Source of the DNA: a virus
Strand: one strand, 5' to 3'
IMG/VR virus record: IMGVR_UViG_3300017786_000152
Coordinates: 1 to 23,258 of that record
DNA: 23,258 nt
Position numbers and translations under genes: made by a program. This document shows positions 1 through 22,743 of the stretch, piece by piece. Position 1 is the stretch's first letter, and every line of letters begins with the position of its first letter. Below the pieces are notes generated by a model, which worked only from the letters and a program-made list of their open reading frames with translations, did not search any database and was not told the origin of the DNA.

Positions 1-1
1 A

Positions 2-472
2 CCATATCATTTTGTTAAGTGGTGTAACCCAACACAGGTTGTTAAGTTTGATATTGAAAAGGGTACAACCGAAGATGTGTTCCAAGATGAATCTGAAAGA
101 AAACCATTCAATAGAGATTTCCGCGGTGGGTCACAAGTCATTCGAATCAATGACCAGCAACGTATGGCATTCGTTCATGAAACAAATTTATTGAAAGATC
201 CGTTTGGTCGTAAAGATGGCGAGTATTCGCATCGAGTTATTATATGGGATAATGATTGGAATATGGTTCATACAAGTCGTAATTTTCATTTTATGGGTAC
301 ATATTATGATCATGTTACAACTACGGATTACGGTATTGAATTTGTAACTGGTATGACGATCCACCCAGAATCTGGCGATATATTAATTTCGTTTGGTTGG
401 CAAGACAATGCATCATTTGTTTTAAAAATGCCGCAACAACTATTCTTAGATTTTTTGAGTGACAAGGGGTAA
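2..472 (+). CDS. C-terminal fragment of a five-bladed beta-propeller, glycosidase-like protein (5' end outside window)
   Basis: The frame is open from the window's left edge, so the gene begins upstream; 156 codons are visible before the TAA at 470-472. The pattern (FRGGSQ, then an AFVHE strand, then HRVIIWD, then GIEFVTGMTIHP, then ILISFGWQD) matches, from memory, the last blades of five-bladed-propeller domains related to GH130-like glycosidases and phosphorylases. These are often found with glycosyltransferases and TPR proteins in surface-polysaccharide loci. The catalytic residues of such enzymes lie mostly in N-terminal blades that are not visible here, so activity cannot be judged. The next gene starts 5 nt downstream, which makes a common transcript likely. 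The fold call is reasonable; the substrate is unknown. It could also be a non-catalytic glycan-binding propeller. Confidence 0.5.
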   Translation, partial: PYHFVKWCNPTQVVKFDIEKGTTEDVFQDESERKPFNRDFRGGSQVIRINDQQRMAFVHETNLLKDPFGRKDGEYSHRVIIWDNDWNMVHTSRNFHFMGTYYDHVTTTDYGIEFVTGMTIHPESGDILISFGWQDNASFVLKMPQQLFLDFLSDKG

Positions 473-476
473 TATT

Positions 477-1721
477 ATGAAATTAGAAAACAAAGAATTA
501 TTACATGATGTTATTTTAGATTATAATAACCCTCCTAAAATATATGCACTTGCTCGAGAATACGATAGGTTAGAACAAGGCTCTGGTGCATTCGGATTTT
601 ATTTGCGTGCAGCAGATATGTCACCTGGTAAAACCTTTGAAGAAAAATGGCTGCAATATAAATGTATGATATTAAGTGCATTTATATATGAGCGTAATGG
701 CAATCGCAATCATAGTGTTGAAGGTTTACATAAGATTGCTATCGATACATTACCAGATAGACCAGAAGCATATTACTTTCTATCACAATTTAAAGCTAAA
801 AATAATGATTGGCGTGAAAGTTTAATGTATGCTAAGATTGGCATGAATTTTATTTACGATGATGATATATGGGAAGCAGAAGATAATGATGTAGGCTATC
901 CTGGACATAATGCTTTACGGTTATTGTATGCTAAAGCAAGATGGAAAACAGATGGCCGAGATGATTCTAAAAACTATGCGTTTAATTTAAAATATAAAAC
1001 AAAGCTTAATGAACAAGATTTACATACAACTAATGCATTACTTGCAGAGCACGGATATCCAAGCACATTAGAATTTACAAATACTGAATTGCCTCGATAC
1101 AAATTTAAGTTCCCGGGCATTGAAGATATTGAACAAAACTATTCTCGACACTTCCAAGATATGTTTGTACTGTCAGTATTAAACGGTAAACGAAACGGTA
1201 AGTTTGTTGAACTAGGCGCTGGGCACCCATCATTGTTTAATAATACTAAGCTACTCGAAGAAGACTTTGATTGGAGCGGTATTTCATTAGATAACTCTGA
1301 ACGCATGTGTCATATCTTTTCAAGAGAAAGACAATCAAATATCTTATTAGCTGATGCAGGCAATACAGATTATGTTGAACTATTTAAACAAAACTGTTTA
1401 GAACAACGCGTAGATTTTCTTCGCATCAATGCAGAGTATTCATCAATGGCTGCATTAAAAGCTATACCGTTTAATAAACACGAATTCAGTGTAATACAAT
1501 TCCAGCACAATGCAATTTGGTGGGGCAAAGGTGTACGTGACGAGTCTCGAGAAATACTTAAGAAGATTGGTTATGTTTTGATGGTACCAGATGTTGCAGT
1601 CGATGAAAAATCTAATTATGAAGATTGGTGGGTACACCCGGCGCATGCAGCTGAAAAACCAAACATGATGGCTACTGGAATTAATTTTGCATGGGATTAT
1701 ATAATGGAGAAAATGAAATGA
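477..1721 (+). CDS. TPR-like domain plus FkbM-like SAM-dependent methyltransferase
   Basis: 414 residues from the ATG at 477, chosen because AAGGGG at 464-469 sits 7 nt upstream; an in-frame ATG at 459 overlaps the previous gene and has no such site. The N-terminal half (about residues 15-140) is alpha-helical with TPR character (alternating A/Y/L positions, DRPEAYYFLSQFKAKNNDWRE). From about residue 240 comes a methyltransferase region with the motif I signature KFVELGAGHPSLFNN, then WSGISLDN (acidic residue binding the SAM ribose), then DFLRINAE. This order is typical of FkbM-family O-methyltransferases acting on sugars or lipids. It lies between a propeller protein and a sugar-nucleotide-type enzyme, suggesting glycan modification of the virion or the host surface (inference). 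Its stop overlaps the next start (ATGA at 1718-1721), indicating translational coupling. Confidence 0.65.
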   Translation: MKLENKELLHDVILDYNNPPKIYALAREYDRLEQGSGAFGFYLRAADMSPGKTFEEKWLQYKCMILSAFIYERNGNRNHSVEGLHKIAIDTLPDRPEAYYFLSQFKAKNNDWRESLMYAKIGMNFIYDDDIWEAEDNDVGYPGHNALRLLYAKARWKTDGRDDSKNYAFNLKYKTKLNEQDLHTTNALLAEHGYPSTLEFTNTELPRYKFKFPGIEDIEQNYSRHFQDMFVLSVLNGKRNGKFVELGAGHPSLFNNTKLLEEDFDWSGISLDNSERMCHIFSRERQSNILLADAGNTDYVELFKQNCLEQRVDFLRINAEYSSMAALKAIPFNKHEFSVIQFQHNAIWWGKGVRDESREILKKIGYVLMVPDVAVDEKSNYEDWWVHPAHAAEKPNMMATGINFAWDYIMEKMK

Positions 1722-2470
1722 GAGTTATAATTGTAACCGGCGGATTCGATCCGATTCATTCCGGACATATTGAATATTTTAAAGCAGCGAAAGAACTCGG
1801 CACGATATTATGTGTTGGTGTTAATAGTGACGAATGGTTAACCCGTAAGAAAGGTAAGCCGTTTATGTCTTTTGAAGAACGTATAAATATAGTTAATAAT
1901 ATTAAATGTGTTGGACATACATTTGGCTTTAACGATGATGACGATTCTGCGTGCGCTGCAATTGATTATATTAAGAATTACTTTCCTAAAAATTCTGAAA
2001 TCATCTTTGCAAATGGCGGCGATAGAACAAAAGAAAACATTCCAGAGATGGAACATGATGATGTTCAATTTATGTTTGGTGTGGGTGGAGAAGATAAGAA
2101 GAATAGTTCCTCGTGGATTTTACAGTCCTGGGATAAACCATCTACTCAAAGACTTTGGGGTAAGTACAGAAATCTTGATGAAAATGGTCATTGGAAAGTA
2201 AAAGAACTTTCAATCGATGTTGGTAAATCTTTATCAGATCAACGGCACTTCATTCGATCAGAACATTGGCATATCGTTGATGGTGAATTAAAGATGGAAC
2301 TTGAGTTTGCTAACGGTTACAGCACATCTAAGGTATATAAAACTGGTGACAGTATAGATATTCCTACAAAATGTTGGCACCACGCAACTAATGTTGGTAA
2401 GAAACCAGTTAAAGTTATTGAAGTTTGGATGGGAAATACGTTGTCAGAAGAAGATATTGAAAGAAGATAA
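1718..2470 (+). CDS. Bifunctional fusion: HxGH nucleotidyltransferase + mannose-6-phosphate-isomerase-type cupin
   Basis: 250 residues from the ATG at 1718, chosen over an upstream ATG at 1691 because GGAG at 1706-1709 fits and the ATGA overlap with the previous stop is typical coupling. Residues 1-140 form a cytidylyltransferase-like (TagD/HldE-C-like) domain: VTGGFDPIHSGH gives the H14-x-G-H17 nucleotide-binding motif, followed by GVNSDEWL, ERINIV and a C-terminal KNSSSWIL resembling the family's SSS/T motif. Residues 145-250 form a type II cupin like the C-terminal domain of bacterial mannose-6-phosphate isomerase/guanylyltransferase: LWGKYRNL, LSDQRHFIRSEHW and IPTKCWHHATN. Q175, H177, E182 and H221 are candidate metal ligands. 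Making and isomerising an activated sugar is the natural inference; the substrate is unknown. It is the last gene before the late virion block. Confidence 0.75.
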   Translation: MRVIIVTGGFDPIHSGHIEYFKAAKELGTILCVGVNSDEWLTRKKGKPFMSFEERINIVNNIKCVGHTFGFNDDDDSACAAIDYIKNYFPKNSEIIFANGGDRTKENIPEMEHDDVQFMFGVGGEDKKNSSSWILQSWDKPSTQRLWGKYRNLDENGHWKVKELSIDVGKSLSDQRHFIRSEHWHIVDGELKMELEFANGYSTSKVYKTGDSIDIPTKCWHHATNVGKKPVKVIEVWMGNTLSEEDIERR

Positions 2471-2495
2471 CATATATTCTAAAGGACATAATCCT

Positions 2496-2524
2496 ATTAT
2501 ACGCTAAAAATTACATTTGTACAC
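2496..2524 (-). promoter_or_regulatory. T4-early-like promoter on the minus strand, antisense to the nucleotidyltransferase-cupin gene
   Basis: Read on the minus strand: -35 GTGTAC (complement of 2519-2524), a 17-nt spacer, and a perfect -10 TATAAT (complement of 2496-2501). T4 early promoters use GTTTAC with this spacing, and a GTTTAC copy precedes the DUF932 gene in this window. Transcription would run leftward into the 3' end of the upstream plus-strand gene. No convincing minus-strand gene follows within the window. Confidence 0.5.
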
Positions 2525-2536
2525 TGTTATTTTATA
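2507..2536. repeat. 30-bp near-repeat, copy 1 (partner at 22726-22755)
   Basis: 27 of 30 bases match the partner in the same orientation. The shared core is ATTTGTACAC followed by TTATTTTATA with one difference between them. Both copies are intergenic or at a gene edge, and both supply the -35 box and upstream A/T tracts of minus-strand early-type promoters. Confidence 0.6.
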
Positions 2537-2540
2537 AATA
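2533..2540 (+). promoter_or_regulatory. Late promoter (TATAAATA) for the virion gene block
   Basis: Exact T4 late octamer TATAAATA, 31 nt before the ATG at 2572, with a one-mismatch TATAAATT at 2542-2549 just behind it. The gene it serves has a strong AAAGGAG site at 2559-2565. Confidence 0.8.
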
Positions 2541-2571
2541 TTATAAATTAATCTAAACAAAGGAGACAAAA

Positions 2572-2979
2572 ATGTCTTTTCAATTATCGGTCGCTGCAAG
2601 AAATGCAACTCTTTCAGCAATAGAAACAGAAATCGGCGAACTTCCAATCCTAACTATATCTACTGGTTCGGTACCGGCAACAGCGGGCACTGCAAATACA
2701 GGCGTTGTTGTAGCTACGATGGTATTACCAACTGATTGGTTGGCAACACCTGTCGGCGGTTCTATTGCGTTATCAGGAACTTGGCAAGATTTATCAGCTG
2801 ATGCTTCTGGTACTGCTGGTTATTTCAGATTGCATAACAATGCTGGAACTGAATGCCATATGCAAGGTACTGTATCAGCAACAGGCGCTGGCGGTGACAT
2901 GCAGTTAGACAATACTAACATTGCGACAGGTCAGCAAATTAATATTACGACATTCACAATTACAGCTGGCGGTGCTTAA
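2572..2979 (+). CDS. Small beta-rich phage protein, probable virion component
   Basis: 135 residues behind a T4 late promoter and a strong AAAGGAG ribosome site. The sequence is low in charge and rich in G, T, A and S, with regular beta-strand alternation: LPILTISTGSVP, VVATMVLPTDWLA, IALSGTWQDLS, AGYFRLHNNAG, then GGDMQLDNTNIATGQ and a final ITTFTITAGGA. I recognise this pattern from small conserved proteins in many phage structural regions, whose biochemical role is not established; capsid decoration or fibre-associated roles are possible. There is no signal peptide and no cysteine-rich or catalytic motif. It occupies the region where T4 has whisker and short-tail-fibre genes upstream of gp13. 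Confidence 0.6.
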   Translation: MSFQLSVAARNATLSAIETEIGELPILTISTGSVPATAGTANTGVVVATMVLPTDWLATPVGGSIALSGTWQDLSADASGTAGYFRLHNNAGTECHMQGTVSATGAGGDMQLDNTNIATGQQINITTFTITAGGA

Positions 2980-3001
2980 ACTTTAACTTAAGGTAAGCTA
3001 C

Positions 3002-3595
3002 ATGTCTGCTAATGGCGCAATAATTACAACATTAGATTTTAGCTTCTTTGGAGGTGGATATCTTGAAGTAACGGGAGAAGCAACCGGATCATTACCAATG
3101 ATTTTCGGTTCAAGCGCCGTTGTACCTATTACTGGTGAAATACAACCTGTTACACTTGACTTTATATTTCAAGCTGGTATTGAAACACCGACAGTATATG
3201 GTGAAGCAAACTTAAGTATTAGCTTTGATTCTTATGGTTTTATAGAATTTGGTGTCCAACGATTTGGTGAAGTTGGCCAAGCAAACCAAGCAATTCTATT
3301 TGAATATACCGCAAATTCTGCGGGTTATGTTACTACACATGGTTATTTTGATAATACCCTAGACTTTAATCTTGACACTAACATCTTTGTATTTTCTTTA
3401 GGTGAAACAAGTGGATTTATTAATGGCTGGGGCGTTAACTCTACCGCACTCAATATTAGTACAAGAAAATATTCAGAAGACGGCATAAACATTGTAGACA
3501 TAGATAAAATTGAATTTAACGATGCATTAGTCCTTGTTGATTCAAATTACGTAGAAATAAATCCAAATGGCATTACTTATGCCGAAATTAAATAA
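3002..3595 (+). CDS. Unrecognised beta-rich protein in the virion gene block
   Basis: 197 residues, starting 22 nt after the previous gene with AAGG at 2991-2994 as a modest ribosome site. I do not recognise a family. The composition is strongly beta-like and acidic: aromatic and glycine-rich N-terminus (FSFFGGGYLEVTGEA), repeated ITGE/TGEA turns, several F-rich strands in the middle, and a C-terminal segment ending NPNGITYAEIK. It has no transmembrane segment or enzyme motif. Its position between two probable virion proteins and its co-orientation with the late block suggest a virion surface component such as a fibre tip or decoration protein (inference only). Confidence 0.5.
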   Translation: MSANGAIITTLDFSFFGGGYLEVTGEATGSLPMIFGSSAVVPITGEIQPVTLDFIFQAGIETPTVYGEANLSISFDSYGFIEFGVQRFGEVGQANQAILFEYTANSAGYVTTHGYFDNTLDFNLDTNIFVFSLGETSGFINGWGVNSTALNISTRKYSEDGINIVDIDKIEFNDALVLVDSNYVEINPNGITYAEIK

Positions 3596-3609
3596 AAGTT
3601 TTCACTTTA

Positions 3610-3617
3610 GATAAATA
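3610..3617 (+). promoter_or_regulatory. Probable late promoter variant GATAAATA
   Basis: GATAAATA differs from the T4 late octamer only in its first base and lies 23 nt before the ATG at 3641, behind a CGGAG ribosome site. The same variant recurs at 13815 and 16568 in front of other late genes. Confidence 0.5.
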
Positions 3618-3640
3618 AAAGTAAAACTCGGAGAAAACAA

Positions 3641-3973
3641 ATGGCGGCTAGCTTTTACATAAAACAGAACGATACTGCACCGTCTATTGAGGCTGCTTTA
3701 AAGAATTCAAATGGTAGAGTTAAATCAATGGCAGAAGCATCTAATGTGAAATTTCATATGAAAGATGTTAACGGGAATATACTAATACAAGATGGTGTTG
3801 GTACTATTTTAAATGCTGCAAAAGGTACTGTAGCCTATGAATGGCAAACAGGTGATACTGCAAACACAGGAACACACAGCGCAGAATTTCAGATTACATA
3901 TAACAACGGTCAGATTGAAACATTTCCAAATACTGGTTATATAAAAGTAATCATTAAAGACGAGTTGGCATAG
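3641..3973 (+). CDS. BppU-like N-terminal domain protein, probable virion/baseplate component
   Basis: 110 residues. The pattern FYIKQNDTAPSIEAALKN, then VKFHMKDVNGNILIQ, then GTVAYEWQTGDTANTGTHSAEFQIT, then FPNTGYIKVIIKDEL is that of the small beta-sandwich domain at the N-terminus of phage baseplate upper proteins (BppU-like), which also occurs alone in many marine myoviruses. In those phages it links receptor-binding parts to the tail. Here it forms the whole protein. The gene ends 9 nt before gp13 and is preceded by a late-promoter variant. The fold is fairly secure; the site on this virion is inferred. Confidence 0.65.
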   Translation: MAASFYIKQNDTAPSIEAALKNSNGRVKSMAEASNVKFHMKDVNGNILIQDGVGTILNAAKGTVAYEWQTGDTANTGTHSAEFQITYNNGQIETFPNTGYIKVIIKDELA

Positions 3974-3982
3974 GGGAAAAAT

Positions 3983-4726
3983 ATGGCACAACCAAGTTCA
4001 AGAGATGAATTCCAAGACTATATTTTACGCAAACTCGGTGCACCCGTTGTTGAAATTAATATTGCGGAAGAGCAGCTTAGTGATCGTATAGATGAAGCAG
4101 TTTCTTTTTGGAGAGACTATCACTATAACGGTTCACAATTAGTTTTTCTAAAACACCTGCTAACCGAACAAGATAAAGAAAATGGCTGGGTTCCATTACC
4201 AAAAGATATCCTCGGCATTCAAAAAGTATTTAACTTTGACACATCTATTTCTGCTGGTAGCGGAATGTTTAATGTGCAATATCAATTTGTTTTAAATAAC
4301 ATCAGTGATTTAACTTCATACGGCATGACAAACTATTATATGTCTTTGCAGCACATTGAATTTATGCAAGAAATGCTAGTAGGTAAACCACGAGTCAGAT
4401 ATAACAAACATGTTAATAAACTCTTTATTGATAACAGAAGAGAGCGTTGGGTCCCTGGTACATATATTATCATTGAAGCATATGATATTATCGATCCAGA
4501 CGAATATGCAGATGTTTGGCAAGAGAGATGGCTACAAAATTATGCAGCAGTATTAGTTAAAGAACAATGGGGACTTAACCTTACTAAATTTACAGGAATG
4601 CAACTCGTAGGAGGAGTACAGTTTAACGGAGAACAAATCTTGGCAGACGCAAGGGCTGAAAGAGAGCGGATGGAAGAAGAAGCCATCAGAAGCTTGCAAC
4701 CGTTAACATATAACTTTATTGGGTAA
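3983..4726 (+). CDS. 13: Neck protein gp13 (head completion)
   Basis: 247 residues, compared with 309 in T4. T4 gp13 together with gp14 forms the neck that seals the portal after packaging and docks the tail. Diagnostic stretches are the N-terminal DEFQDYILRKLGAPVVEINI and QLSDRIDEAVSFW (helical start shared by the family), MQEMLVGKPRVRYNKH, WVPGTYIIIEAYDIIDP, then YADVWQERWLQNYAAVLVK and WGLNLTKF. The start has GGGGA at 3973-3977. Four nt later comes gp14, as in T4. The shorter length probably reflects loss of peripheral loops. Confidence 0.9.
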   Translation: MAQPSSRDEFQDYILRKLGAPVVEINIAEEQLSDRIDEAVSFWRDYHYNGSQLVFLKHLLTEQDKENGWVPLPKDILGIQKVFNFDTSISAGSGMFNVQYQFVLNNISDLTSYGMTNYYMSLQHIEFMQEMLVGKPRVRYNKHVNKLFIDNRRERWVPGTYIIIEAYDIIDPDEYADVWQERWLQNYAAVLVKEQWGLNLTKFTGMQLVGGVQFNGEQILADARAERERMEEEAIRSLQPLTYNFIG

Positions 4727-4729
4727 ATC

Positions 4730-5407
4730 ATGGCAACTAATTCATATTTCTCTCCTTACAATACATTTAATGAGCAACAATTAATCGATGATTTAGTTAT
4801 TGAATCCATTAAAATGTACGGTATAGATGTGACCTACATCACCGGAGAATTTAATAATATAGATACTGTGCTTAATGAAGATGATTCTCCATTATACGAT
4901 AAGACTTACGGTTTCGAAGTATACATTAAAAACGTCGACGGCTTTGAAGGCGAAGGCGATTTCTTATCTCGGTTTGGTTTACAAATTCGAGATCAAATTA
5001 CATTTAGTGTTGCTATTAGAACATTTGAAAGATATGTTACACGGGAAGATCAGACTAAGCTGCGCCCGCGTGAAAATGATATTATTCAATTACCACTTAA
5101 TAAAAAAATGTACAGAATTACGTACGTTGAGCATGAAAGTGTATTCTATCAATCCGGTAAGTTGCAAGTCTATGATGTTAAATGTGAGCTTATGGAATAT
5201 TCTGGTGAAAGATTTGATACGGGATATCCTGATATTGATGATTACTTCGATGACATTGATACATCATCTGAATTCGTAAGTACATTAACTAATCTTGCAA
5301 ATACTGATCCTATCGCACAGAACTTAGAGTTTGAACAAATCGCTGATGATATTTTAGATTTCTCTGAAATGGATCCGTTCAGCGAAAACATTACTATTCA
5401 GGATTGA
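4730..5407 (+). CDS. 14: Neck protein gp14 (head completion)
   Basis: 225 residues, against 256 in T4. It partners gp13 in the neck. Recognisable are the N-terminal YFSPYNTFNEQQLIDDLVIE, the IDVTYI strand, GFEGEGDFLSRFGLQIRDQI, the RPRENDIIQLPLNKKMYRI segment and VFYQSGKLQVYDVKCELMEYSGE, which are highly typical of T4-like gp14. The C-terminal 50 residues are acidic and probably flexible. The start lies 4 nt after the gp13 stop with only a weak ribosome site, so translation is probably coupled to gp13. Confidence 0.92.
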   Translation: MATNSYFSPYNTFNEQQLIDDLVIESIKMYGIDVTYITGEFNNIDTVLNEDDSPLYDKTYGFEVYIKNVDGFEGEGDFLSRFGLQIRDQITFSVAIRTFERYVTREDQTKLRPRENDIIQLPLNKKMYRITYVEHESVFYQSGKLQVYDVKCELMEYSGERFDTGYPDIDDYFDDIDTSSEFVSTLTNLANTDPIAQNLEFEQIADDILDFSEMDPFSENITIQD

Positions 5408-5411
5408 TAAC

Positions 5412-7511
5412 ATGGCAATAGCTAATCATTTTTATAACGAAACCACTCGAAGATATGTTGCTTTATTTGGTACGTTATTTAATCAACTTAAAATTACCCG
5501 GTCAGATAATGCGGGTACCGAAGTGCAATCATTGATTGTACCGTTAGCTTATGCTCCGTTTCAAAAAGTCCTGGCTCGTTTAAACCAAGATCCGGATTTA
5601 ATTAACAGTCGTCGTACAGCAATGACGCTGCCACGTATGTCTTTTGAGATTACAAGTTTTACTTATGACTCGCAAAGAAAATTAGCTTCAACTCTTAAAA
5701 TGCGTAAAGATGCAAAGTCTGAAACTGATTCTTCTCGTAACTTCGTGCATTCCGCAGTGCCATATAATTTAGATTTTTCTTTGTATATTATGACAAAGTA
5801 TTCTGAAGATGCTACAAAAATCATGGAACAAATCATTCCATTTTTTACACCGGACTGGACTGTCACAGCAAAGATGGTTGAAGACTTAGATCCAATTGAT
5901 ATACCTATTATATTAAACAGCGTTAGTACAGAAGACTTATATGAGAATGATTTTGAAAGCCGTACGTCAATCGTATATACACTTTCATTCACTTTAAAGG
6001 GTTGGTACTTCGGACCAGAAAAGAAACAAAAAGTAATTAAATTTGTTGACATTGATTTAGCAACAGATACAGATGCAGATAAAGCACCTGACGAACGTAT
6101 TATTATTAAGCCAGGAATGGATGCTCAGGGCAATCCATTGACACAAGATTCTGTGCTCGCAACAGCAATTGCTAGTTTGAATAATGGATCGCTTTCAGGC
6201 ATTACTGTCGTAAACAATGGTGAAAATTATAATCAAGCAAACACAAATGTGCTCGCAACTATTGCTGCACCAGACTCTGCAAATGCGGTTATTACGCCTG
6301 TTATAACGAACACAAGCATATCCTCATTCGCCATAAACGAGTCTGGCGGCTTCTATACTGCGACCCCTAGTATAACTATCAGTGCACCTAATATGCCGAT
6401 TACAACAGCCACAGCAGCCCCTACGGTTACCGGTGACAGTATTTCAGCAATTAATGTAACAGATTCAGGTACTTATTATAACTCAGCCACGGTCGCAATA
6501 GAAGAGCCTCCGCTCAAATCTGCAGTCGGTGCTAAGTTTGGTACAGATGCTTTAGGCCACTCAAGTCATACAGATCAAACATTCAGTCACATTACAACTT
6601 ATAATTTAGTTACAGCTGGTAACGGATTCTCAATTGAATTCTGGATTTACCCAACTGAATTTAATGCAAGTGATAATCATATTTTATCTTACTCTGGTCA
6701 AACAATGAGACTTGAAATTGAAACTGGCGGAATACTTGTATATCGTCCTGCTTTAAACTCAAGCCCCGTAAGATCAACACCAGAAGCATTGAATCTTAAT
6801 CAATGGAATCATTGTCGTATTACTCATGTTGGAACTACGGCACGCTGGACAGTTAACGGTGTATCAGATCAAGGCGGTTCTGCTCCACAAGGTTTCTTAT
6901 TTGGTGGTGGTGCAACTGTAACTATTGGTTCACGTTCAGCAAACGAAAAAAGTTTCTTAGGTTCAATTGACAACATTACATTTTCAACAACAAACGTTTT
7001 ACCAGCAGTAGGTGCATATACTATACCAACAACTGCTTTAACTGGTAATTTGCATACAGATGATTTTGAAAAAGTTCCTGCTACGGCCACGGCAACAGTT
7101 ACAGCCGGTGAGATTACAGGAATTACAGTAACAAATCCTGGTGAAAATTACACGGGTATAACTCCGACAGTAACAATAAGTGCTCCAGACGGGGTAGCAG
7201 CAGATTATCAAGCATCAGCTACAGCAACTCTTGCGGACGGTGCAATATCTAATATTACTATAAATAATGCAGGTAAGTTTTATAACTCAGCAACAACTAC
7301 TGTTCCTGGTGTAATTTCTCAGCAAGCAACTGCAAATGTTGCAATTAGCAAAAGCGGCGAAGTTTCATCAGTAACAATAATAGATGCTGGACTAGGTTAT
7401 AGAGTTCCTCCAGTAGTTACAATCTCCGAACCTGTTGCGACAGCAGTTTCATATACACAAATCGAATTTGACGACGACTGGGGAATCATTACAATATTTG
7501 AGGATGCATAA
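5412..7511 (+). CDS. 15: Tail completion/sheath terminator gp15 with a LamG-type domain and six beta repeats
   Basis: 699 residues; T4 gp15 has 272. Residues 1-235 are the gp15 domain that caps the tail tube and sheath as a hexamer: HFYNETTRRYVALFGTLFN, SFEITSFTYDSQRKL, VPYNLDFSLYIMTKY and FTPDWTVTAKM. Residues 368-530 form a LamG/concanavalin-A-like sandwich: FSIEFWIYPTEF, LNLNQWNHCRITH, TARWTVNG, then SFLGSIDNITFS. Three repeats precede it (about 258-288, 302-327, 343-366) and three follow (565-593, 609-633, 647-675), with consensus ISxITVxNxGxxY and then TVTIxxP. The last 20 residues (ending WGIITIFEDA) may be the original gp15 terminus. The gp15 call is secure and the LamG fold is well supported; glycan or cell-surface binding at the neck is inference. 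The gene overlaps gp16 by TAATG. Confidence 0.88.
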   Translation: MAIANHFYNETTRRYVALFGTLFNQLKITRSDNAGTEVQSLIVPLAYAPFQKVLARLNQDPDLINSRRTAMTLPRMSFEITSFTYDSQRKLASTLKMRKDAKSETDSSRNFVHSAVPYNLDFSLYIMTKYSEDATKIMEQIIPFFTPDWTVTAKMVEDLDPIDIPIILNSVSTEDLYENDFESRTSIVYTLSFTLKGWYFGPEKKQKVIKFVDIDLATDTDADKAPDERIIIKPGMDAQGNPLTQDSVLATAIASLNNGSLSGITVVNNGENYNQANTNVLATIAAPDSANAVITPVITNTSISSFAINESGGFYTATPSITISAPNMPITTATAAPTVTGDSISAINVTDSGTYYNSATVAIEEPPLKSAVGAKFGTDALGHSSHTDQTFSHITTYNLVTAGNGFSIEFWIYPTEFNASDNHILSYSGQTMRLEIETGGILVYRPALNSSPVRSTPEALNLNQWNHCRITHVGTTARWTVNGVSDQGGSAPQGFLFGGGATVTIGSRSANEKSFLGSIDNITFSTTNVLPAVGAYTIPTTALTGNLHTDDFEKVPATATATVTAGEITGITVTNPGENYTGITPTVTISAPDGVAADYQASATATLADGAISNITINNAGKFYNSATTTVPGVISQQATANVAISKSGEVSSVTIIDAGLGYRVPPVVTISEPVATAVSYTQIEFDDDWGIITIFEDA
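6177..7434 (+). repeat. Array inside gp15: three beta repeats, LamG domain, three beta repeats
   Basis: Protein-level repeats lie at nt about 6183-6275, 6315-6392, 6438-6509, then 7104-7190, 7236-7310 and 7350-7436. Each carries an (I/V)(S/T)xIT(V/I)xxxGxxY core followed by a TVTI-type strand and a proline. The LamG domain lies between repeats 3 and 4 (about 6513-7001). The arrangement is near-symmetric (3 + 1 + 3) and looks like a module inserted before the C-terminal tail of gp15. Such repeats occur in structural proteins of marine T4-like phages. Confidence 0.65.
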
Positions 7512-7984
7512 TGAGCGACGAAAAGATTTCTTCTGCACTTGGTATTAGACCAATGTCAGAAATAGATGAAAATGAAAAGATTCTTCCTGCGGAAGCGCAG
7601 CCTATTGCGGAAGTTAAACCTCAAGCCCCGTCAACTGAGTTGGCTATCGGTACAGAGATAGATCAAGAAAATCTAGCAGACATTGAAACTGTTCGTGATA
7701 ATATCAATGATGTTATGTCGACAGGACAAGAAGCTATGAAAGAGATGCTTGAAATTGCTAAGCAATCTGAGCAGCCTCGTGCATTCGAAGTTGTTTCAAC
7801 TTTAATGAAAACATTGCTTGATGCTAATAAAGATTATGCAGACATTTCTACTAAGCGTAAATTTGCGAAGGAAGAAATCAACGGACCTAAAGAAGCAGCA
7901 CAAACAAATGTTACAAATAATAACTTAATTGTTTCAACATCAGATTTGCTAAGAATGATTAAAGGCGAACCTGAAGATGGGTGA
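7511..7984 (+). CDS. 16: Small terminase subunit gp16
   Basis: 157 residues, close to the 164 of T4 gp16. gp16 forms rings that recognise DNA and stimulate the gp17 ATPase at packaging start. The signature is the central coiled-coil segment: QPRAFEVVSTLMKTLLDANKDY corresponds to the ADSPRHMEVFATLM stretch of T4 gp16. It is followed by a T/N-rich linker (TNVTNNNLIVSTSDLLRMIK) resembling the T4 C-terminal region. The N-terminal 45 residues are acidic and proline-rich. It overlaps gp15 by one base (TAATG) and gp17 by eight, so all three are translationally linked. Confidence 0.9.
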   Translation: MSDEKISSALGIRPMSEIDENEKILPAEAQPIAEVKPQAPSTELAIGTEIDQENLADIETVRDNINDVMSTGQEAMKEMLEIAKQSEQPRAFEVVSTLMKTLLDANKDYADISTKRKFAKEEINGPKEAAQTNVTNNNLIVSTSDLLRMIKGEPEDG

Positions 7985-9563
7985 CGGTTACTTAGGCAAC
8001 TCTAATCTCAAAAAAGTTCAAGAACAAATTGAGTGGACGCCTGAATTATTAAAAGAATATATGAAGTGTGCACAAGATCCGATATATTTTGCTAAAAATT
8101 ATATTAAGATTGTTCACGTTGACCGAGGACTTGTACCTTTTGAAATGTATCCATACCAGGAAAACATTACTCGAAAGATTACAGATAACCGTCGTGTCGC
8201 AGTATTAACTGCACGTCAGTCCGGTAAAACAACTACTGCAATGGCTATTATTTTGCATTATGTTTTATTTAATGAATTTAAAACCGTTGCTATCCTTGCA
8301 AACAAAGGTGATGCTGCTCGAGAAGTTATGGCTCGAGTAAAACTTGCTTTTGAATCATTACCGAAATGGCTGCAACAAGGTGTAGAAGAATGGAATAAAG
8401 GTAACATAGCATTAGAAAATGGGTGTCAAGTATTAGCAGGTACCACATCTTCAAGTGCTATTCGTGGTAAATCTGTTAACTTTCTGTACCTCGATGAGGT
8501 TGCATTTATTGAAGGCTACGATGATTTCTTTGCCTCAGTTTATCCAACTATTTCATCTGGTGAATCAACAAAACTATTAATGACTTCAACACCAAATGGT
8601 TTGAATCATTTTTGGAAAACATGCCGAGGTGCTAAAGAAGGTACGAACGGTTATGAATATGAAGAAGTTATGTGGAATGATGTTCCTGGCCGGGATGAAA
8701 AATGGCGCAAAGAAACATTAGAAGCACTTGATCATGATGAACAAAAATTTGCGCAAGAGTATTGCTGCGAATTCCAAGGCAGCTCAGGAACTTTAATCTC
8801 TGGTGTAGCCTTGAAAGCGCTTTATGCTGAGCAACCCCTCACTATAATTGAAGGGCTATCACAATATGAACGTGCAAGCCCTGGGCAGCAGTATGTAATT
8901 ACAGCAGACGTTGCTCGTGGTAAAGGTTTAGATTTCTCAACATTTAACGTTTTTGATATTACAGAAATGCCTTATAAGCAAGTCGCTGTTTATAAGGACA
9001 ACTTAATTGGACCAGTCGACTTTGCATCTGTACTGTATAGAGCAGGTAAAATATATAATGAAGCTGGCATCTTAATAGAAATAAATGACATCGGTGGACA
9101 GGTATCCGATGTTCTTACACTTGATCATGGATATGAAAACTTATTGTACACTCAAAATTCTGGGCGGAGTGGAAAGGTTCTCAGTGCAGGCTTTGGTAAA
9201 AACGTAGATAATGGCGTTAGAACTACAAAACTTGTTAAAGCAACAGGTTGTTCTATGCTTAAAATGCTCGTTGAACAAAATCAATTGTTATTACGAGATA
9301 GCGATACGATAGAAGAACTAAAGCGATTTTCAAAAAAAGCAAACTCTTTCGAAGCAGAGTCCGGATTCCATGACGATTTAGTTATGAATTTAGTCTTATT
9401 TGCATGGATGACGGAACAACAATACTTCAAAGATATGACAGATATAAATACACTAACAAAGCTCAGAGAAAAAACAGACGAGCAAATTGAAGAAGAAATG
9501 CTACCATTGGGTTTCTTCGACGTTGGGGACGAGATATACGAAGACGACGGACTTAGGTTATGA
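7977..9563 (+). CDS. 17: Large terminase subunit gp17 (packaging ATPase and nuclease)
   Basis: 528 residues, against 610 in T4. The N-terminal ATPase has Walker A ARQSGKTT (79-86), Walker B FLYLDE (169-174, catalytic E174) and coupling motif MTSTPNG (202-208). The C-terminal RNase-H-like nuclease carries VITADVARGKGLD with D311, ILIEINDIG with E368 and GFHDDLVMN with D466, matching the T4 triad D401/E458/D542. gp17 docks on the portal, cuts concatemeric DNA and translocates it into the prohead. The region after the nuclease is short compared with T4, accounting for most of the length difference. All catalytic residues are present, so it should be functional. Confidence 0.96.
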   Translation: MGDGYLGNSNLKKVQEQIEWTPELLKEYMKCAQDPIYFAKNYIKIVHVDRGLVPFEMYPYQENITRKITDNRRVAVLTARQSGKTTTAMAIILHYVLFNEFKTVAILANKGDAAREVMARVKLAFESLPKWLQQGVEEWNKGNIALENGCQVLAGTTSSSAIRGKSVNFLYLDEVAFIEGYDDFFASVYPTISSGESTKLLMTSTPNGLNHFWKTCRGAKEGTNGYEYEEVMWNDVPGRDEKWRKETLEALDHDEQKFAQEYCCEFQGSSGTLISGVALKALYAEQPLTIIEGLSQYERASPGQQYVITADVARGKGLDFSTFNVFDITEMPYKQVAVYKDNLIGPVDFASVLYRAGKIYNEAGILIEINDIGGQVSDVLTLDHGYENLLYTQNSGRSGKVLSAGFGKNVDNGVRTTKLVKATGCSMLKMLVEQNQLLLRDSDTIEELKRFSKKANSFEAESGFHDDLVMNLVLFAWMTEQQYFKDMTDINTLTKLREKTDEQIEEEMLPLGFFDVGDEIYEDDGLRL

Positions 9564-9589
9564 GCTCATTTTAGCAAATCAAAACATAT

Positions 9590-9597
9590 TATAAATA
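9590..9597 (+). promoter_or_regulatory. Late promoter (TATAAATA) for tail sheath gp18
   Basis: Exact T4 late octamer in the 84-nt gap between gp17 and gp18, 50 nt before the gp18 ATG, which has AAAGGAG at 9636-9642. The gap holds nothing else that I can see. Confidence 0.8.
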
Positions 9598-9647
9598 GAA
9601 ACAGACATATATTAAACGCGTTTCTAACATAATTAAAGGAGAAAAAC

Positions 9648-11645
9648 ATGGCTTTTTCCGTAAGTCCTTCCGTCATAGTTCGGGAAGTGGATGCGAGTCA
9701 AACTGTACCAGGCGTAGCAACAGCGCCGGCAGCTATGGCAGGTATTTTCAAATGGGGGCCAGTTAATGACCCTATTTTGATAACTTCCGAGACTCAACTT
9801 GTAGATCGTTTCGGTAAACCAACCGACGACAACTACGAAACATTTTTTACAGCATCAGATTACCTATCCTATGCAAGTGCACTTTATGTTGTACGTGCAG
9901 ATGATTCGTCTCTTACTGCTACCAGCACAACACTAGATATTACATCAGCATATGATGCTGTTTCAAATACAACTATCGTAACAGATAATAGTGTGTACGG
10001 TGCTTTCGACGCAAAATACCCAGGCGCACTAGGTAATAGCATCGAAGTTTCTTGGTCAACATCAAAAGCATTTTCAAATGAAATTGAACCTTTGAATGGT
10101 ATTGATCCAAATAAAATAAGTAATACATCTATATCTCAAACTATTGATTTTAATTCAAATACAGTAGAATGGGAAACAGCAACTACATTGGATGCAAACA
10201 ATGCCGTTACTGCTACAAACATTAATCCTATCTATGTGGGTGATGTTATTGTACTCGGTAATAACAGCGTTGGATACCAAGAATTAGTTGTAACTGCGGT
10301 TGCAAACAATCCAATTACTGAAGTTGTTGCAAATACTGATGTAACAGTTGCTACTACAACAGAGCTAACATTTACTACAAGGTATACATTAGCTGAAACA
10401 AGACTAAACCAACTATCAATAGTTAGAAAATGGTCGCAAAATGCGTTGTTTGGTAAGAAACCAGACTTAAACCACTTGCATATTACAGTTACAGATAAAG
10501 ACGGTGATATTACAGGTACCCCAAATACCGTACTTGAAGTATTTGATAACGTTTCTACAATTGAAGGTGCAGTTTCACCACAAGGTCAAACTAACTATTA
10601 CCAAACAATTATTGAAAACCAATCATCTTGGGTTAAAGTGGCTAACACTGCAGTTATTGATGCTGCAATGGTTACTGACAATTCAAATGCAGCTGACGCT
10701 CTAAGAAATAATAACTACGAAAATCTAGGCGATGGTACTGATGCTTCAACTGAAACAACTGCCACACTAGGTTCGCTAGCATTTGCTTGGGACGAGCTTA
10801 AGAATTCAAATGAAATTGATATTTCTTTTGTTCTTCAAGGTAAAGGTGATGCAGGCGCAACTAGAGCAAACTATATTGTTGCAAACATTGCAGAATATAG
10901 AAAAGATTGTGTAGCTTTCTTATCACCAGATTTAGCTGGGATGGTTACTGCAGTAAAAACTAATGATAAACTAAACAATGCAATTGCATATCGTAACCTA
11001 GTTCAGAACTCTTCATATTCGTTTATGGATTCTGGTTATAAATATCGATATGACAAGTTTAACGACAAGTATCGTTGGACACCTCTAAATGGTGATATGG
11101 CAGGTCTTGCATCAAGAGTAGATGCATGGGAATCTCCAGCTGGTTATAGAAAAGGTGTTATTAAAAATATCATCAAACTAGCATTTAACCCAAGCAAACC
11201 ACAAAGAGATGCTCTATACACGGCAGATATTAATCCTGTTATGTCACAAACTGGACGAGGAATTGTTCTATTCGGTGATAAAACTGGTTTGGGCATGCCA
11301 AGTGCATTTGATCGTCTTAATGTTCGCAGATTGTTTATTGCGATTGAAAAGTCTATCGCTACTGCTGCGGAAGGATTTTTATTCGAGTTTAATGATGATT
11401 TCACACAAACTCAATTTAAGAATATTGTTGATCCATTCCTTCGAGATATTCAAGGCAGACGAGGTATTACTGATTTCAGAGTAGTTTCTGATGCAACAGT
11501 AAATACTCCAGAAGTGATTGATCAAAATAAATTCCGCGCAAGCATTTTTGTTAAGCCAGCACGCTCTATCAATGTGATCGAATTAACATTCGTAGCAACT
11601 AGAACCGGTGTTGAGTTTGATGAAATTGTTGGCCAGCTAACGTAA
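9648..11645 (+). CDS. 18: Contractile tail sheath protein gp18
   Basis: 665 residues, compared with 659 in T4. Sheath subunits polymerise around the gp19 tube and contract during injection. The N-terminus SPSVIVREVDASQ, VATAPAAMAGIFKWGPVNDP and the following ETQLVDRFGKPT and SYASALYVVRA are hallmark sheath sequences. The C-terminal core is equally typical: QGRRGITDFRVVSDATVN and PARSINVIELTFVATRTG, containing the strands that interlock neighbouring subunits. The middle (about 90-270) is T/N-rich and is the expected variable, outward-facing part. The gene has its own late promoter, consistent with high demand. Confidence 0.95.
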   Translation: MAFSVSPSVIVREVDASQTVPGVATAPAAMAGIFKWGPVNDPILITSETQLVDRFGKPTDDNYETFFTASDYLSYASALYVVRADDSSLTATSTTLDITSAYDAVSNTTIVTDNSVYGAFDAKYPGALGNSIEVSWSTSKAFSNEIEPLNGIDPNKISNTSISQTIDFNSNTVEWETATTLDANNAVTATNINPIYVGDVIVLGNNSVGYQELVVTAVANNPITEVVANTDVTVATTTELTFTTRYTLAETRLNQLSIVRKWSQNALFGKKPDLNHLHITVTDKDGDITGTPNTVLEVFDNVSTIEGAVSPQGQTNYYQTIIENQSSWVKVANTAVIDAAMVTDNSNAADALRNNNYENLGDGTDASTETTATLGSLAFAWDELKNSNEIDISFVLQGKGDAGATRANYIVANIAEYRKDCVAFLSPDLAGMVTAVKTNDKLNNAIAYRNLVQNSSYSFMDSGYKYRYDKFNDKYRWTPLNGDMAGLASRVDAWESPAGYRKGVIKNIIKLAFNPSKPQRDALYTADINPVMSQTGRGIVLFGDKTGLGMPSAFDRLNVRRLFIAIEKSIATAAEGFLFEFNDDFTQTQFKNIVDPFLRDIQGRRGITDFRVVSDATVNTPEVIDQNKFRASIFVKPARSINVIELTFVATRTGVEFDEIVGQLT

Positions 11646-11651
11646 TAAATA
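11644..11651 (+). promoter_or_regulatory. Possible late promoter variant AATAAATA for gp19
   Basis: AATAAATA overlaps the gp18 stop codon and lies 21 nt before the gp19 ATG. It differs from TATAAATA only in the first base. A similar variant stands before gp22. Confidence 0.4.
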
Positions 11652-11672
11652 AAAGAAAAAGGAGAAAGACAC

Positions 11673-12206
11673 ATGGCATTTAATATCAACCAGTTCAAAT
11701 CAGAACTCGTCGGTGGCGGTGCACGTCCAACGCTCTTCCAATGTCAGATCACTAATCCTATTAATCCGACAGCAGATATCAAAACACCGTTTATGATTCG
11801 ATCTGCTGGAATTCCCGAGTCAAGTGTAGGGGCATACATTGTCCCTTACTTTGGCCGTCAGATTAAATATGCTGGTGACAGAACATTTGCAGACTGGAGT
11901 GTACAAGTAATAAACGATGAAGATTTTGCAATTCGTAACGCTATGGAAGAGTGGATGAATTTCATTAACTCGCACGATTCAAACTCGCGTGGTTTACCAC
12001 AACAGTATAAATCTACAGGGCAAGTAACACAATACAGCAAAGATGGTTCACCATTGCGTACATATGTTTTTGAAGGCATGTACCCAGTAAGTGTGGAAGG
12101 TATTCAGCTGGATTGGTCTAACTCGGATACAATTGAAGAATTCGGGATTACGTTCCAATACGATCTGTGGAGAGTAGAAGGAAACACTGGCCTACCGACT
12201 ACATAA
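11673..12206 (+). CDS. 19: Tail tube protein gp19
   Basis: 177 residues, near the 163 of T4. It forms the inner tube through which DNA passes. Family features are the N-terminal FKSELVGGGARPTLFQCQI, then FMIRSAGIPESSVGAYIVPYFGRQIKYAGDRTFADWSVQVIND (the tube-fold beta segment), RNAMEEWMNFIN, and the C-terminal WSNSDTIEEFGITFQYDLW. A strong AAGGAG site precedes the start. Its place between sheath and portal is as in T4. Confidence 0.95.
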   Translation: MAFNINQFKSELVGGGARPTLFQCQITNPINPTADIKTPFMIRSAGIPESSVGAYIVPYFGRQIKYAGDRTFADWSVQVINDEDFAIRNAMEEWMNFINSHDSNSRGLPQQYKSTGQVTQYSKDGSPLRTYVFEGMYPVSVEGIQLDWSNSDTIEEFGITFQYDLWRVEGNTGLPTT

Positions 12207-12235
12207 ATTATATTATTATTAAGTGAGGAATAACG

Positions 12236-13819
12236 ATGAAGCTATTTGGTTTCGAAATAAAAAGAGATTCTGACGAGGAGGCTGGTGGACATACACCGGT
12301 CTCTTTTGCTGAACCTCAGAATGATGACGGTGCGATTACTGTCAGCGGTGGAGCTATGGGTGGATTCTATAGCACTATCCTTGATTTAGAAGGCACTGCA
12401 AAAACAGAATCTGAACTTGTTACCAAATACCGTGGTCTGGCACATAATCCAGAAATCAATCAAGCTATTGACGAAATTGTTAATGAAGCAATTAACGTTG
12501 ATACACAAGACAAGGTTGTAGATCTTGTTTTAGATAATACAGATTTACCTGATAAAGTTAAAGACAAACTTGTTGAAGAGTTTGAAAATGTATTATCACT
12601 ATTAGATTTTTCAAATCAAGCATATGATATTTTTAGTAAATTCTATGTTGATGGTCGAGTAAACTATCACGTTATCATTGATAATGATAATATCTCTGAG
12701 GGTATACGTGAATTAAGATATGTTGACCCGAGAAAACTAAAGCTTATCCGTGAAATGGATAAAAAGAATTTAGATAAACATTCTATGGTACCAGTCAAAA
12801 GAGTTAAATCCGAATATTATATGTATTCAGAAAATGGATTTGGTTCGCAGGGTGGCAAAGGTAATGGATTACAGACAGGTTCACAAGGTTATAAAGTAGC
12901 AAAAGACGCAATTGCTCGTGTTACATCTGGTGTTATGACTGAAAATAATTCGCTTGTATTATCTCACTTAAGTGCTGCAATGAAACCATTGAATCAATTA
13001 AGGATGCTAGAAGATGCAACAATTATTTACACTCTTACACGAGCTCCTGAGAGACGAGTGTTCTACATTGACGTTGGCAACTTACCTAAATCAAAAGCTG
13101 AGCAGTATCTAAGAGATATGATGGTTCGCCATAAAAATAAGTTGCAATACAATTCAGCAACTGGTGAAATCAATGATCAGCGTAAAATGATGACTATGAC
13201 CGAAGATCTATGGTTCCCGCGTCGCGGTGGCGAAAGAACAACGGAAGTTGATACTTTACCTGGCGGTAATGCTGCTGGCTTAACTAACGATGAAAACTTA
13301 CAGTATTTCCAGCGTAAACTATACAAATCGTTAAAGGTTCCGCTATCGCGTTTAGAGCCAGAGACAATGTATAGCTTCGGTAGAGTTTCAGAAATTACTC
13401 GTGATGAACTTAAATTTGGTAAGTTTGTTACAAGATTAAGAGTACGTTTTTCAAGTATCTTTACACAACTGTTAGAAAAGCAACTTGTTCTTAAAGGTAT
13501 TATGACACCAGAAGAATTTGTAGAAATTAAAGATTCACTTCGTTATGATTTTATCCAAGACAATTATTTCCAAGAATTAAAAGAAGCGGAAATTGCAAAA
13601 GAAAGACTTTCAACATTACGAGATGTTGAAGATCATATTGGCACTTACTATTCAAGAGAATGGGTTCGTAAAAATATTCTCCAAATGTCAGAAGATGATA
13701 TTAGAGATATGGATAAGCAAATAGCTAAAGAAGCTGAAAATGAACCTGATGATGACATGGAAGAGCCAGAAGAAGACGCAAACAACAATCCACAAGATTC
13801 AAAAGTAGTCAATGGATAA
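12236..13819 (+). CDS. 20: Portal vertex protein gp20
   Basis: 527 residues, compared with 524 in T4. Twelve copies form the portal that nucleates head assembly and serves as the docking ring for gp17 and the neck. Typical stretches: LVTKYRGLAHNPEINQAIDEIVNEAI, FYVDGRVNYHVIID, IRELRYVDPRKLKLI, LTRAPERRVFYIDVGNLPKSKAEQYLRDMM, DLWFPRRGGERTTEVDTLPGG and LKVPLSRLEPE. The C-terminus is acidic, as in related phages. No clear late octamer stands directly upstream (only a degenerate CATAAATT near 12203), so expression may come from the gp18/gp19 promoters. Confidence 0.96.
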   Translation: MKLFGFEIKRDSDEEAGGHTPVSFAEPQNDDGAITVSGGAMGGFYSTILDLEGTAKTESELVTKYRGLAHNPEINQAIDEIVNEAINVDTQDKVVDLVLDNTDLPDKVKDKLVEEFENVLSLLDFSNQAYDIFSKFYVDGRVNYHVIIDNDNISEGIRELRYVDPRKLKLIREMDKKNLDKHSMVPVKRVKSEYYMYSENGFGSQGGKGNGLQTGSQGYKVAKDAIARVTSGVMTENNSLVLSHLSAAMKPLNQLRMLEDATIIYTLTRAPERRVFYIDVGNLPKSKAEQYLRDMMVRHKNKLQYNSATGEINDQRKMMTMTEDLWFPRRGGERTTEVDTLPGGNAAGLTNDENLQYFQRKLYKSLKVPLSRLEPETMYSFGRVSEITRDELKFGKFVTRLRVRFSSIFTQLLEKQLVLKGIMTPEEFVEIKDSLRYDFIQDNYFQELKEAEIAKERLSTLRDVEDHIGTYYSREWVRKNILQMSEDDIRDMDKQIAKEAENEPDDDMEEPEEDANNNPQDSKVVNG

Positions 13820-13822
13820 ATA
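13815..13822 (+). promoter_or_regulatory. Probable late promoter variant GATAAATA
   Basis: GATAAATA overlaps the gp20 stop codon and lies 32 nt before the ATG at 13855, which has TTGGAG at 13842-13847. It is the same variant as at 3610 and 16568. Confidence 0.5.
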
Positions 13823-13854
13823 TAATCAAATTAAAGAATATTTGGAGAACCAAA

Positions 13855-14757
13855 ATGAAGTCCTTTAAAACACTATTAAGCGAAGTCGCAGAGCCGAAAT
13901 CGGCTGAAGAGAAACGCTTTAAAGATCAGCATACATATGAAGTAATCAAACACCCGGTTGCTTTAGATAGCCAACACACAGGTGAAATTACTCCTGGCCA
14001 AACTACCGATAAAGGTAAGCGTGCAGCAGATCAAAAAGGTGATGCGGCATATGATAAAGCATATTCAAAGCACGGTGATGGTTCAACAAAATTAAAAGAA
14101 GACGCATCAGGAATGAATGCTGCTCAAAAAATGAATTTTGATAAGTTATATAAGAAAATGAATAACGGACCAGAACATAAAGCTCTTAAGCAAAAACATG
14201 GTAACCAGGTTAAAGCAGACGATGCATTTCATGCAATGGTTAAAGCAAAAGCAATGGGCGAAGATCAGCAGCTTACTGATGAAGAATTATCAGCAGCACA
14301 AAAGAAAATTGACATCAATAAAAATGGTAAGATTGATGGACATGATCTAGCTATGCTTCGTGCTAAAAAGAAAAAAACTGAGGGTAAAAAAACCTTTAGA
14401 AGCGTGACTGAAGGCCTTATGTCTGCATTAAAGAAACCAGTTACTCAAACAGGACCAGACGGAAAAACTCGTACCGTTATGAAAACAACTCGTAACGTTA
14501 ACAAAGACGACAGAGGTTATGATAAAATCAGAACTAATGAATCTGACGAGTTGCTTGACGAAGGTATGAAATTTAAACAAGGCAATCTTAAATTAAAAGA
14601 TCGCTCATCGGTTAAAATAACTAAAGAAGACGCTGATAAGTTGAATAAACTTATGGGTGGATTAGACCGTAACAATTTAAAAAGAATGGAAGCTACGGCT
14701 GTTAAAGACAAGAAATCCTTTAATGAGATTTTAAGTTTTGCACGAGAAGCTACATAA
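13855..14757 (+). CDS. Lysine-rich prohead core/internal protein with CTS-like N-terminus and EF-hand-like loop
   Basis: 300 residues, in the slot of T4 gp67/gp68 between portal and protease. The N-terminus MKSFKTLLSEVAE resembles the capsid-targeting sequence of T4 internal proteins (MKTYQEFIAEA), which gp21 cuts after E. Related motifs recur at KTFRSVTEG (179-187) and KSFNEILSF (287-295), and other L-x-E sites exist (ELLDE). Residues 153-164 (DINKNGKIDGHD) fit a dockerin/EF-hand calcium loop with D153, N155, N157, D161 and D164. The protein is highly charged, rich in K and D, and probably mostly disordered. A role as a core protein packaged in the head and processed by gp21 is inference from position and N-terminus. 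I do not recognise a named family with certainty. Confidence 0.6.
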   Translation: MKSFKTLLSEVAEPKSAEEKRFKDQHTYEVIKHPVALDSQHTGEITPGQTTDKGKRAADQKGDAAYDKAYSKHGDGSTKLKEDASGMNAAQKMNFDKLYKKMNNGPEHKALKQKHGNQVKADDAFHAMVKAKAMGEDQQLTDEELSAAQKKIDINKNGKIDGHDLAMLRAKKKKTEGKKTFRSVTEGLMSALKKPVTQTGPDGKTRTVMKTTRNVNKDDRGYDKIRTNESDELLDEGMKFKQGNLKLKDRSSVKITKEDADKLNKLMGGLDRNNLKRMEATAVKDKKSFNEILSFAREAT

Positions 14758-14762
14758 GATTA

Positions 14763-14770
14763 TATAAATA
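14763..14770 (+). promoter_or_regulatory. Late promoter (TATAAATA) for prohead protease gp21
   Basis: Exact late octamer 27 nt before the ATG at 14798, in the short gap after the core-protein gene. Confidence 0.75.
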
Positions 14771-14797
14771 AACAGTATAAACAAAAAGGCGATGAAC

Positions 14798-15490: not shown

Positions 15491-15496
15491 TTTTTT

Positions 15497-15504
15497 AATA
15501 AATA
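15497..15504 (+). promoter_or_regulatory. Possible late promoter variant AATAAATA for gp22
   Basis: AATAAATA lies 38 nt before the gp22 ATG at 15543, in an otherwise gene-free 52-nt gap, with AAAGGAG at 15528-15534. Confidence 0.45.
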
Positions 15505-15542
15505 GTATACATATAGAATAAACACCAAAAGGAGTAGAACAT

Positions 15543-16532: not shown

Positions 16533-16553
16533 AACCGGTAAAACATTAACAAT

Positions 16554-16575
16554 TATAAATAGATCTAGATAAATA
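16554..16575 (+). promoter_or_regulatory. Tandem late promoters upstream of major capsid gp23
   Basis: An exact TATAAATA at 16554-16561 is followed by GATAAATA at 16568-16575, 14 bp apart centre to centre. The gp23 ATG is at 16599 with AAGGAG at 16584-16589. Confidence 0.7.
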
Positions 16576-16598
16576 CTCAATCAAGGAGATAGACAATT

Positions 16599-17915: not shown

Positions 17916-17955
17916 GTTGAATTAAAATAAGATTAGGGTTCACCTAACCTACTTT

Positions 17956-17983
17956 AAAGGACTCCTTCGGGGGTCCTTTTTTT
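17956..17983 (+). terminator. Rho-independent terminator after gp23
   Basis: A 10-bp stem (AAAGGACTCC with GGGGTCCTTT, one G-U pair), a TTCG loop closed by C-G, and a run of seven T (17977-17983). The T-run overlaps the stop codon of the convergent minus-strand gene. Confidence 0.92.
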
Positions 17984-18734: not shown

Positions 18735-18740
18735 AATAAT

Positions 18741-18748: not shown

Positions 18749-18750
18749 GC

Positions 18751-18775: not shown

Positions 18776-18780
18776 AATTA

Positions 18781-19071: not shown

Positions 19072-19081
19072 AATATATCTC

Positions 19082-21079: not shown

Positions 21080-21108
21080 ATTATAACACAGTTTTAGTAT
21101 AAGTAAAC
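21080..21108 (-). promoter_or_regulatory. T4-early-like promoter for the DUF932 operon
   Basis: On the minus strand: -35 GTTTAC (complement of 21103-21108), 17-nt spacer, -10 TATAAT (complement of 21080-21085), with an A/T-rich upstream tract. This matches the T4 early promoter pattern recognised by unmodified host sigma-70 polymerase. Transcription would start near 21072, about 25 nt before the ATG at 21047. Confidence 0.8.
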
Positions 21109-22713: not shown

Positions 22714-22743
22714 ATAATACACTATAAAAGTAAATTTGTACAC
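22714..22743 (-). promoter_or_regulatory. Probable T4-early-like promoter for the 22685-21136 operon
   Basis: On the minus strand: -35 GTGTAC (complement of 22738-22743), 18-nt spacer, -10 TATTAT (complement of 22714-22719). The -35 region is shared with the promoter at 2496-2524. The spacer is one base longer and the -10 has one mismatch, so it is weaker than the DUF932 promoter by sequence. Confidence 0.45.

Follow-up and report, generated by a model that had tools for sequence, protein, structure and literature searches.

A putative early-type antisense promoter with an inverted repeat at its start, at a border of late genes in T4-like phages

We analyzed a short gap between two rightward genes of a T4-like phage and found that it very probably holds a genuine, selected, early-type antisense promoter, judging from its sequence and that of its relatives. 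We tentatively favor the explanation that this is a working sigma-70/early-type promoter at the border of tandem late units, from which early, opposing leftward transcription would keep the late block off. The sequences show the promoter type, its conservation, its antisense position and a linked inverted repeat, and we found no conserved reading frame. Across uncultured T4-like phages, an antisense promoter without a gene stays near perfect consensus, together with a covarying repeat that is rare at the promoters of early genes. If the border role is true, the site would be a compact, testable element for keeping phage late genes off early in infection.

The probable antisense promoter and its conservation

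The window, that is, the whole stretch of DNA analyzed, is a 23,258-base virus record of a T4-like phage. Genes for further virion proteins lie on its plus strand along with those for the large terminase and a T4-like neck protein, and the minus strand on the right has a DUF932 gene together with exonuclease-like and DNA-binding genes. A strong terminator-like hairpin lies at 17956-17979, where the late plus-strand block meets the minus-strand genes. The site sits in a 101-base gap between a cytidylyltransferase-cupin gene, which ends at 2470, and a virion structural gene, which starts at 2572. The features are listed by window position.

1718..2470, plus strand: left gene, a cytidylyltransferase-like and cupin fusion (Pfam), whose 3' end the antisense RNA would cover
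2483..2495, no strand: inverted repeat of AGGA (2483-2486), CATAA (2487-2491) and TCCT (2492-2495), directly beside the -10 box and across the predicted start
2489..2489, minus strand: predicted start of the leftward RNA, placed 7 nt past the -10 box
2496..2501, minus strand: -10 box TATAAT, from sequence match and relatives
2518..2523, minus strand: -35 box TGTACA (2519-2524 when read as GTGTAC), TTGACA in relatives
2533-2540, plus strand: late-type promoter TATAAATA, facing right
2572..2979, plus strand: right gene, a 135-aa virion structural protein (PHROG 3758)
21080..21108, minus strand: sense early-type promoter GTTTAC-N17-TATAAT before the DUF932 gene, for comparison
22714..22743, minus strand: sense early-type promoter GTGTAC...TATTAT before a 70-aa minus-strand ORF, for comparison

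The initial annotation had described GTGTAC-N17-TATAAT on the minus strand at 2524..2496, a late-type promoter facing right beside it and a nucleotidyltransferase-cupin gene on the left, and all three are present. GTGTAC-N16-18-TATAAT has a single match in the whole window, compared with a mean of 0.03 in 100 shuffles (one match in 3 of them). The site is real, but the homologous -35 box is TGTACA with a 16-nt spacer, one base over from GTGTAC with 17, in register with the TTGACA-N16 seen in L009, L016 and other close relatives. Against the sigma-70 consensus the window site scores 10/12, with TGTACA agreeing with TTGACA at 4/6 positions. A sigma-70 scan of window positions 1-20000 returned 75 sites, with 70.6 expected, which is chance level overall. 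Because sigma-70-like matches are this common by chance in the window DNA, relatives are needed as proof.

We fetched relatives by protein scans with the left and right genes, taking the best 80 of 173 and the best 80 of 171. The scans gave 144 loci (L009-L152), part of them sharing a contig; both genes could be placed in 130 loci, the window included, which reduced to 51 distinct intergenic sequences. From these best-80 sets, 44 of the 51 sequences carried a 12/12 match to TTGACA-N16/17-TATAAT on the minus strand at the same place, two scored 11/12, the window 10/12, and four had no site, although sequences sharing kinship do not count as independent events. A 12/12 match arose in 2 of 2,550 shuffled sequences and on the plus strand in 0 of 51, where the maximum was 10/12. 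Over the 47 site-bearing sequences, positional entropy was 0-0.25 bits in the hexamers and 0.82-1.98 bits in the spacer. Near-invariant hexamers around a varying spacer suggest selection beyond shared descent. A TGn element was present in 29 of the 47.

The promoter is also kept beside a different left gene, a UvsW-like helicase gene with a UvsY-like gene before it (L111 and G029). It is absent from the L039 group (4 of the 51 sequences, with gaps of 61-62 nt), though the cupin gene is there. In eight further loci the cupin gene runs into a gene with a neck-like start (L031, L058, L059, L061, L066, L069, L076 and L087); TATAAATA is present and the stretch shown has no such promoter. Among named relatives, TTGACA-N16/17-TATAAT was not found before gp13 in the stretches of phiM12, phiN3, Cr30, Melnitz-3, HTVC008M, RHph_I1_18 and DLP6, nor in T4 74-95 kb or AG-345-P14. 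Pseudoalteromonas phage XG4 has one match in its stretch, with no repeat there by eye. A similarity search of phage DNA returned 101 records with short partial matches, the best among the 20 listed being Lactobacillus phage 521B. In the literature covered by our search, which largely excludes subscription papers, we recognized no description of an antisense promoter combined with such a repeat.

The same pattern marks promoters that face genes. In 20 long records, TTGACA-N16/17-TATAAT matched 110 times, compared with 6 for a reversed control. On the minus strand, 14 of 17 matches in G002 and 14 of 19 in G003 were followed, after 26-61 nt, by an ATG that had a ribosome-site-like motif and opened an ORF of 30 codons or more. 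The exceptions were this site plus two more in G002, and this site plus four more in G003. Within the window, GT[G/T]TAC-N16-18-TAT[A/T]AT occurs only three times, always on the minus strand, twice before genes and once at the antisense site. The same pattern averaged 0.096 matches in 500 first-order Markov sequences, none of which held at least two. We infer the early class of the antisense promoter, and of the genes compared, from this promoter likeness. The T4 early -35 motif is GTTTAC. A separate observation is a perfect TTGACA-N16-TATAAT facing right on the plus strand (22161-22188), inside the minus-strand DNA-binding-protein ORF at 21691-22275.

The imperfect -35 box raises the question of a relic, that is, a promoter active in relatives and weak or dead in the window phage. 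The relatives have the full consensus that TGTACA matches at only four of six positions, but the two sense early-type promoters of the window are similarly changed at -35 (GTGTAC and GTTTAC), and the -10 box and repeat of the antisense site are intact. The DUF932-like gene of G003, so assigned by its first residues, is preceded by TTGACA-N17-TATAAT, so the -35 boxes of the window phage seem to have drifted together. We consider decay of this promoter quite improbable.

The inverted repeat at the predicted start site

The repeat lies directly past the -10 box and reads, for example, AGGA-TTATG-TCCT on the minus strand. Its arms covary: a stem of at least 4 formed in 25 of 34 distinct sequences, compared with a mean of 7.9 and a maximum of 14 in 500 arm shuffles. 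At the other early promoters of six records, a repeat was found in 3 of 34. We also surveyed viral contigs by pattern, using 80 of 120 stretches, which gave 65 distinct repeat regions. In these, the left gene was on the plus strand in 26, on the minus strand in 32 and unplaced in 7, and 22 of the 26 plus-strand genes ended within 60 nt, forming tandem borders. In these 80 of 120 stretches, the repeat was present at 18 of 22 tandem borders and 1 of 32 divergent ones (Fisher p = 1.3e-9, an optimistic value, as the survey overlaps the first relative set and the sequences are related). The tandem borders without it are L173, L198, L207 and L214. Elsewhere in the window, a long imperfect inverted repeat, AGTTTTCACTTT ... 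AAAGTAAAACT, occupies the gap between two plus-strand genes at 3596-3640, with an ATAAATA late-like motif inside it by eye.

Some phages have a second antisense TTGACA-N17-TATAAT with a repeat of its own (G001, G004, G007, G008, G010 and G012). There the -35 box shares bases with the start codon of a long ORF that looks fiber-like. In G011, the stem found at the second site was only 3. Loci L161-L169 and L291-L294 cover the second sites of these seven records. Extra pattern matches inside coding stretches of G001 (near 38.4 kb) and G005 (near 0.5 kb) may be chance.

Two simple functions for the repeat were set aside. Read on the plus strand as an intrinsic terminator, it has a weak stem followed by UAUUAU, with no U run, and it was not among the terminator-like sites found in the window scan. 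As sense-strand RNA, the hairpin has low stability, with -2.6 to -5.4 kcal/mol in the 5 examples folded, which argues against a plain terminator. A protein operator would have fixed arms; here the arms differ from phage to phage, and from one site to another in G001, a pattern that favors a structural repeat.

A structural repeat could act in RNA. A short RNA, or pairing of the sense repeat with the antisense transcript, might control decay of the upstream late message. The covariation fits this, as does the position of the repeat in the sense RNA, within the 3' untranslated sequence, and synonymous codon identity of the left gene peaks in its last 15 codons (0.672 versus 0.577 overall). That excess is small, however, with other bins reaching 0.646; the sense hairpin is weak, folding of the antisense RNA over its first 90 nt does not surpass that of shuffled sequences (z -0.43), and the window holds no Rfam family at gathering score. 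Control of message decay seems unlikely to us. The repeat could also act in DNA. Hairpins could form in a scrunched bubble, and here the non-template strand, once scrunched, might fold at the repeat. The backward consensus sigma-70 promoter with its self-complementary start would then be a recurrent module at tandem late borders that holds host RNA polymerase as a roadblock, and the late structural genes would stay silent until the late polymerase takes over. We give this variant a rather low probability.

Proposed transcription against the upstream late unit

In the explanation we favor, a host sigma-70 or phage early-type promoter would fire leftward from the border of two tandem late transcription units, and the resulting RNA would go untranslated and run antisense to the upstream unit at its 3' end. 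Early in infection and in cis, leftward transcription would oppose rightward RNA polymerases and cover the DNA of the neighboring late promoter. The late block would stay off until early promoters close, and the late RNA polymerase would then use TATAAATA. The start-site repeat would probably be a structural element tuning either the antisense promoter or the end of the sense RNA.

The leftward RNA would overlap the 3' end of the left plus-strand gene. A conserved minus-strand ORF with a ribosome site was not found; the longest frames have 20-82 codons and scattered starts, and no conserved minus-strand frame lies within 150 nt of the predicted start. The late promoter is the other close neighbor. 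TATAAATA, which is the T4 late motif, has 8 copies in the window, with 3.25 expected, and 9 nt separate it from the antisense -35 box in 40 of 47 distinct relatives. At the second antisense site, no TATAAATA stands between the promoter and the gene, and L127 keeps the antisense promoter despite the loss of TATAAATA. These cases indicate that the role must go beyond masking of the late promoter.

The initial annotation had offered two purposes for the promoter. Silencing of the glycan cassette alone is doubtful, since the module persists beside other left-hand genes and is absent from the L039 group despite its cupin gene. These other genes are the UvsW-like helicase (G029), a gp4-like head-closure gene (G021) and, as a third kind, the long fiber-like ORF at the second site of G001, G004 and G007. 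Service to a minus-strand gene on the left found no support in most records examined, with G021 as the one exception. A related proposal is a leader promoter for minus-strand genes further left, with transcription crossing one or more plus-strand genes. In G021, minus-strand genes lie just past one 438-nt plus-strand gene, the first being a baseplate tail-tube-cap gene, and in G004, G005 and G007 a minus-strand cluster begins 4-5 kb to the left. However, the clusters of these three records have their own TTGACA-N17 promoter, and the called genes left of the site form one unbroken plus-strand run of about 21 kb in G002 and G003 and 56 kb in G001. We regard a leader promoter as very unlikely. 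In G021 (L316, around 7060), the module is flanked by the gp4-like head-closure gene and a gene for a DNA end protector, and the minus-strand baseplate genes lie past gp4.

Opposition to rightward transcription at the border has evidence on both sides. In G002, G003 and G029, a plus-strand early-type promoter further left aims toward the late block, which suggests a border role. Against it, the left early cassette of G004, G005 and G007 faces away from the late block and the module is still kept; the L039 group and the eight promoter-less cupin loci manage without the module; and late genes should be off early in infection anyway. Two of these arrangements can be described further. In G029 (L317 3039-5041), UvsY-like and UvsW-like genes with a plus-strand early-type promoter read straight into the antisense promoter. 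In G002 (L153), the plus-strand stretch at 11249-17427 under an early-type promoter looks like the cassette that is inverted in the minus-strand clusters of G004, G005 and G007. The first protein of this shared-looking cassette contains ...HDVSYID..., and the G002 cassette has cysteine motifs that we take to be radical-SAM-like.

Comparison with known antisense and early promoters

The main rival to opposition at the border is an origin like T4 oriE, where an early leftward RNA antisense to late genes would form an R-loop and prime leading-strand synthesis. T4 oriE likewise has an early-mode promoter in a late region that transcribes against late gene 5 (T4 record; PMC3016281), and the T4 record gives its primer RNA as complementary to the gene 5 transcript. 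Some phages here have two or three antisense sites, and T4 likewise has several origins. On the other hand, six records had no consistent change of strand skew at the site, although in the available text of PMC3016281 T4 oriA and oriC also fall outside skew shifts. Downstream A+T content was 0.640, compared with 0.637 for the gene (n = 47), with no unwinding element as defined for oriF and oriG. Evenly spaced direct repeats (iterons) were not found in window positions 1500-2700, and the same part of PMC3016281 describes no iteron role in T4 origin activity as established. We rate an origin as possible though on the unlikely side; if the site is one, it would mark where such phages may start replication. 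At T4 oriE, the transcript made early extends over repEA and repEB as well, and iterons are present in the region, whereas here we found neither a conserved minus-strand frame nor iteron-like repeats. The covarying start-site repeat is a feature of the present site.

In the available sources, descriptions of antisense transcription in T4-like phages concern T4 oriE, T4 gene 32 (by reference title) and one cyanophage RNA; further literature includes PMC3014915 and PMC2988020. The last of these RNAs, CfrI of cyanophage S-PM2, resembles the present case as an antisense RNA in a T4-like marine phage, but the account available places it over psbA and the gene for a homing endonuclease, with both of which it is co-expressed, rather than at a late-operon border (PMC2984593). 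Phage AR9 also has mapped phage promoters driving antisense RNA; as far as the accessible text goes, seven are late promoters, and the phage has its own multisubunit RNA polymerases (PMC5312081). The -35/-10 layout, the excellent sigma-70 match and the frequent TGn element are shared with T4-type early promoters as described in the accessible part of PMC2988021. The present site differs from them in having no rightly oriented gene downstream and in adding a self-complementary start region.
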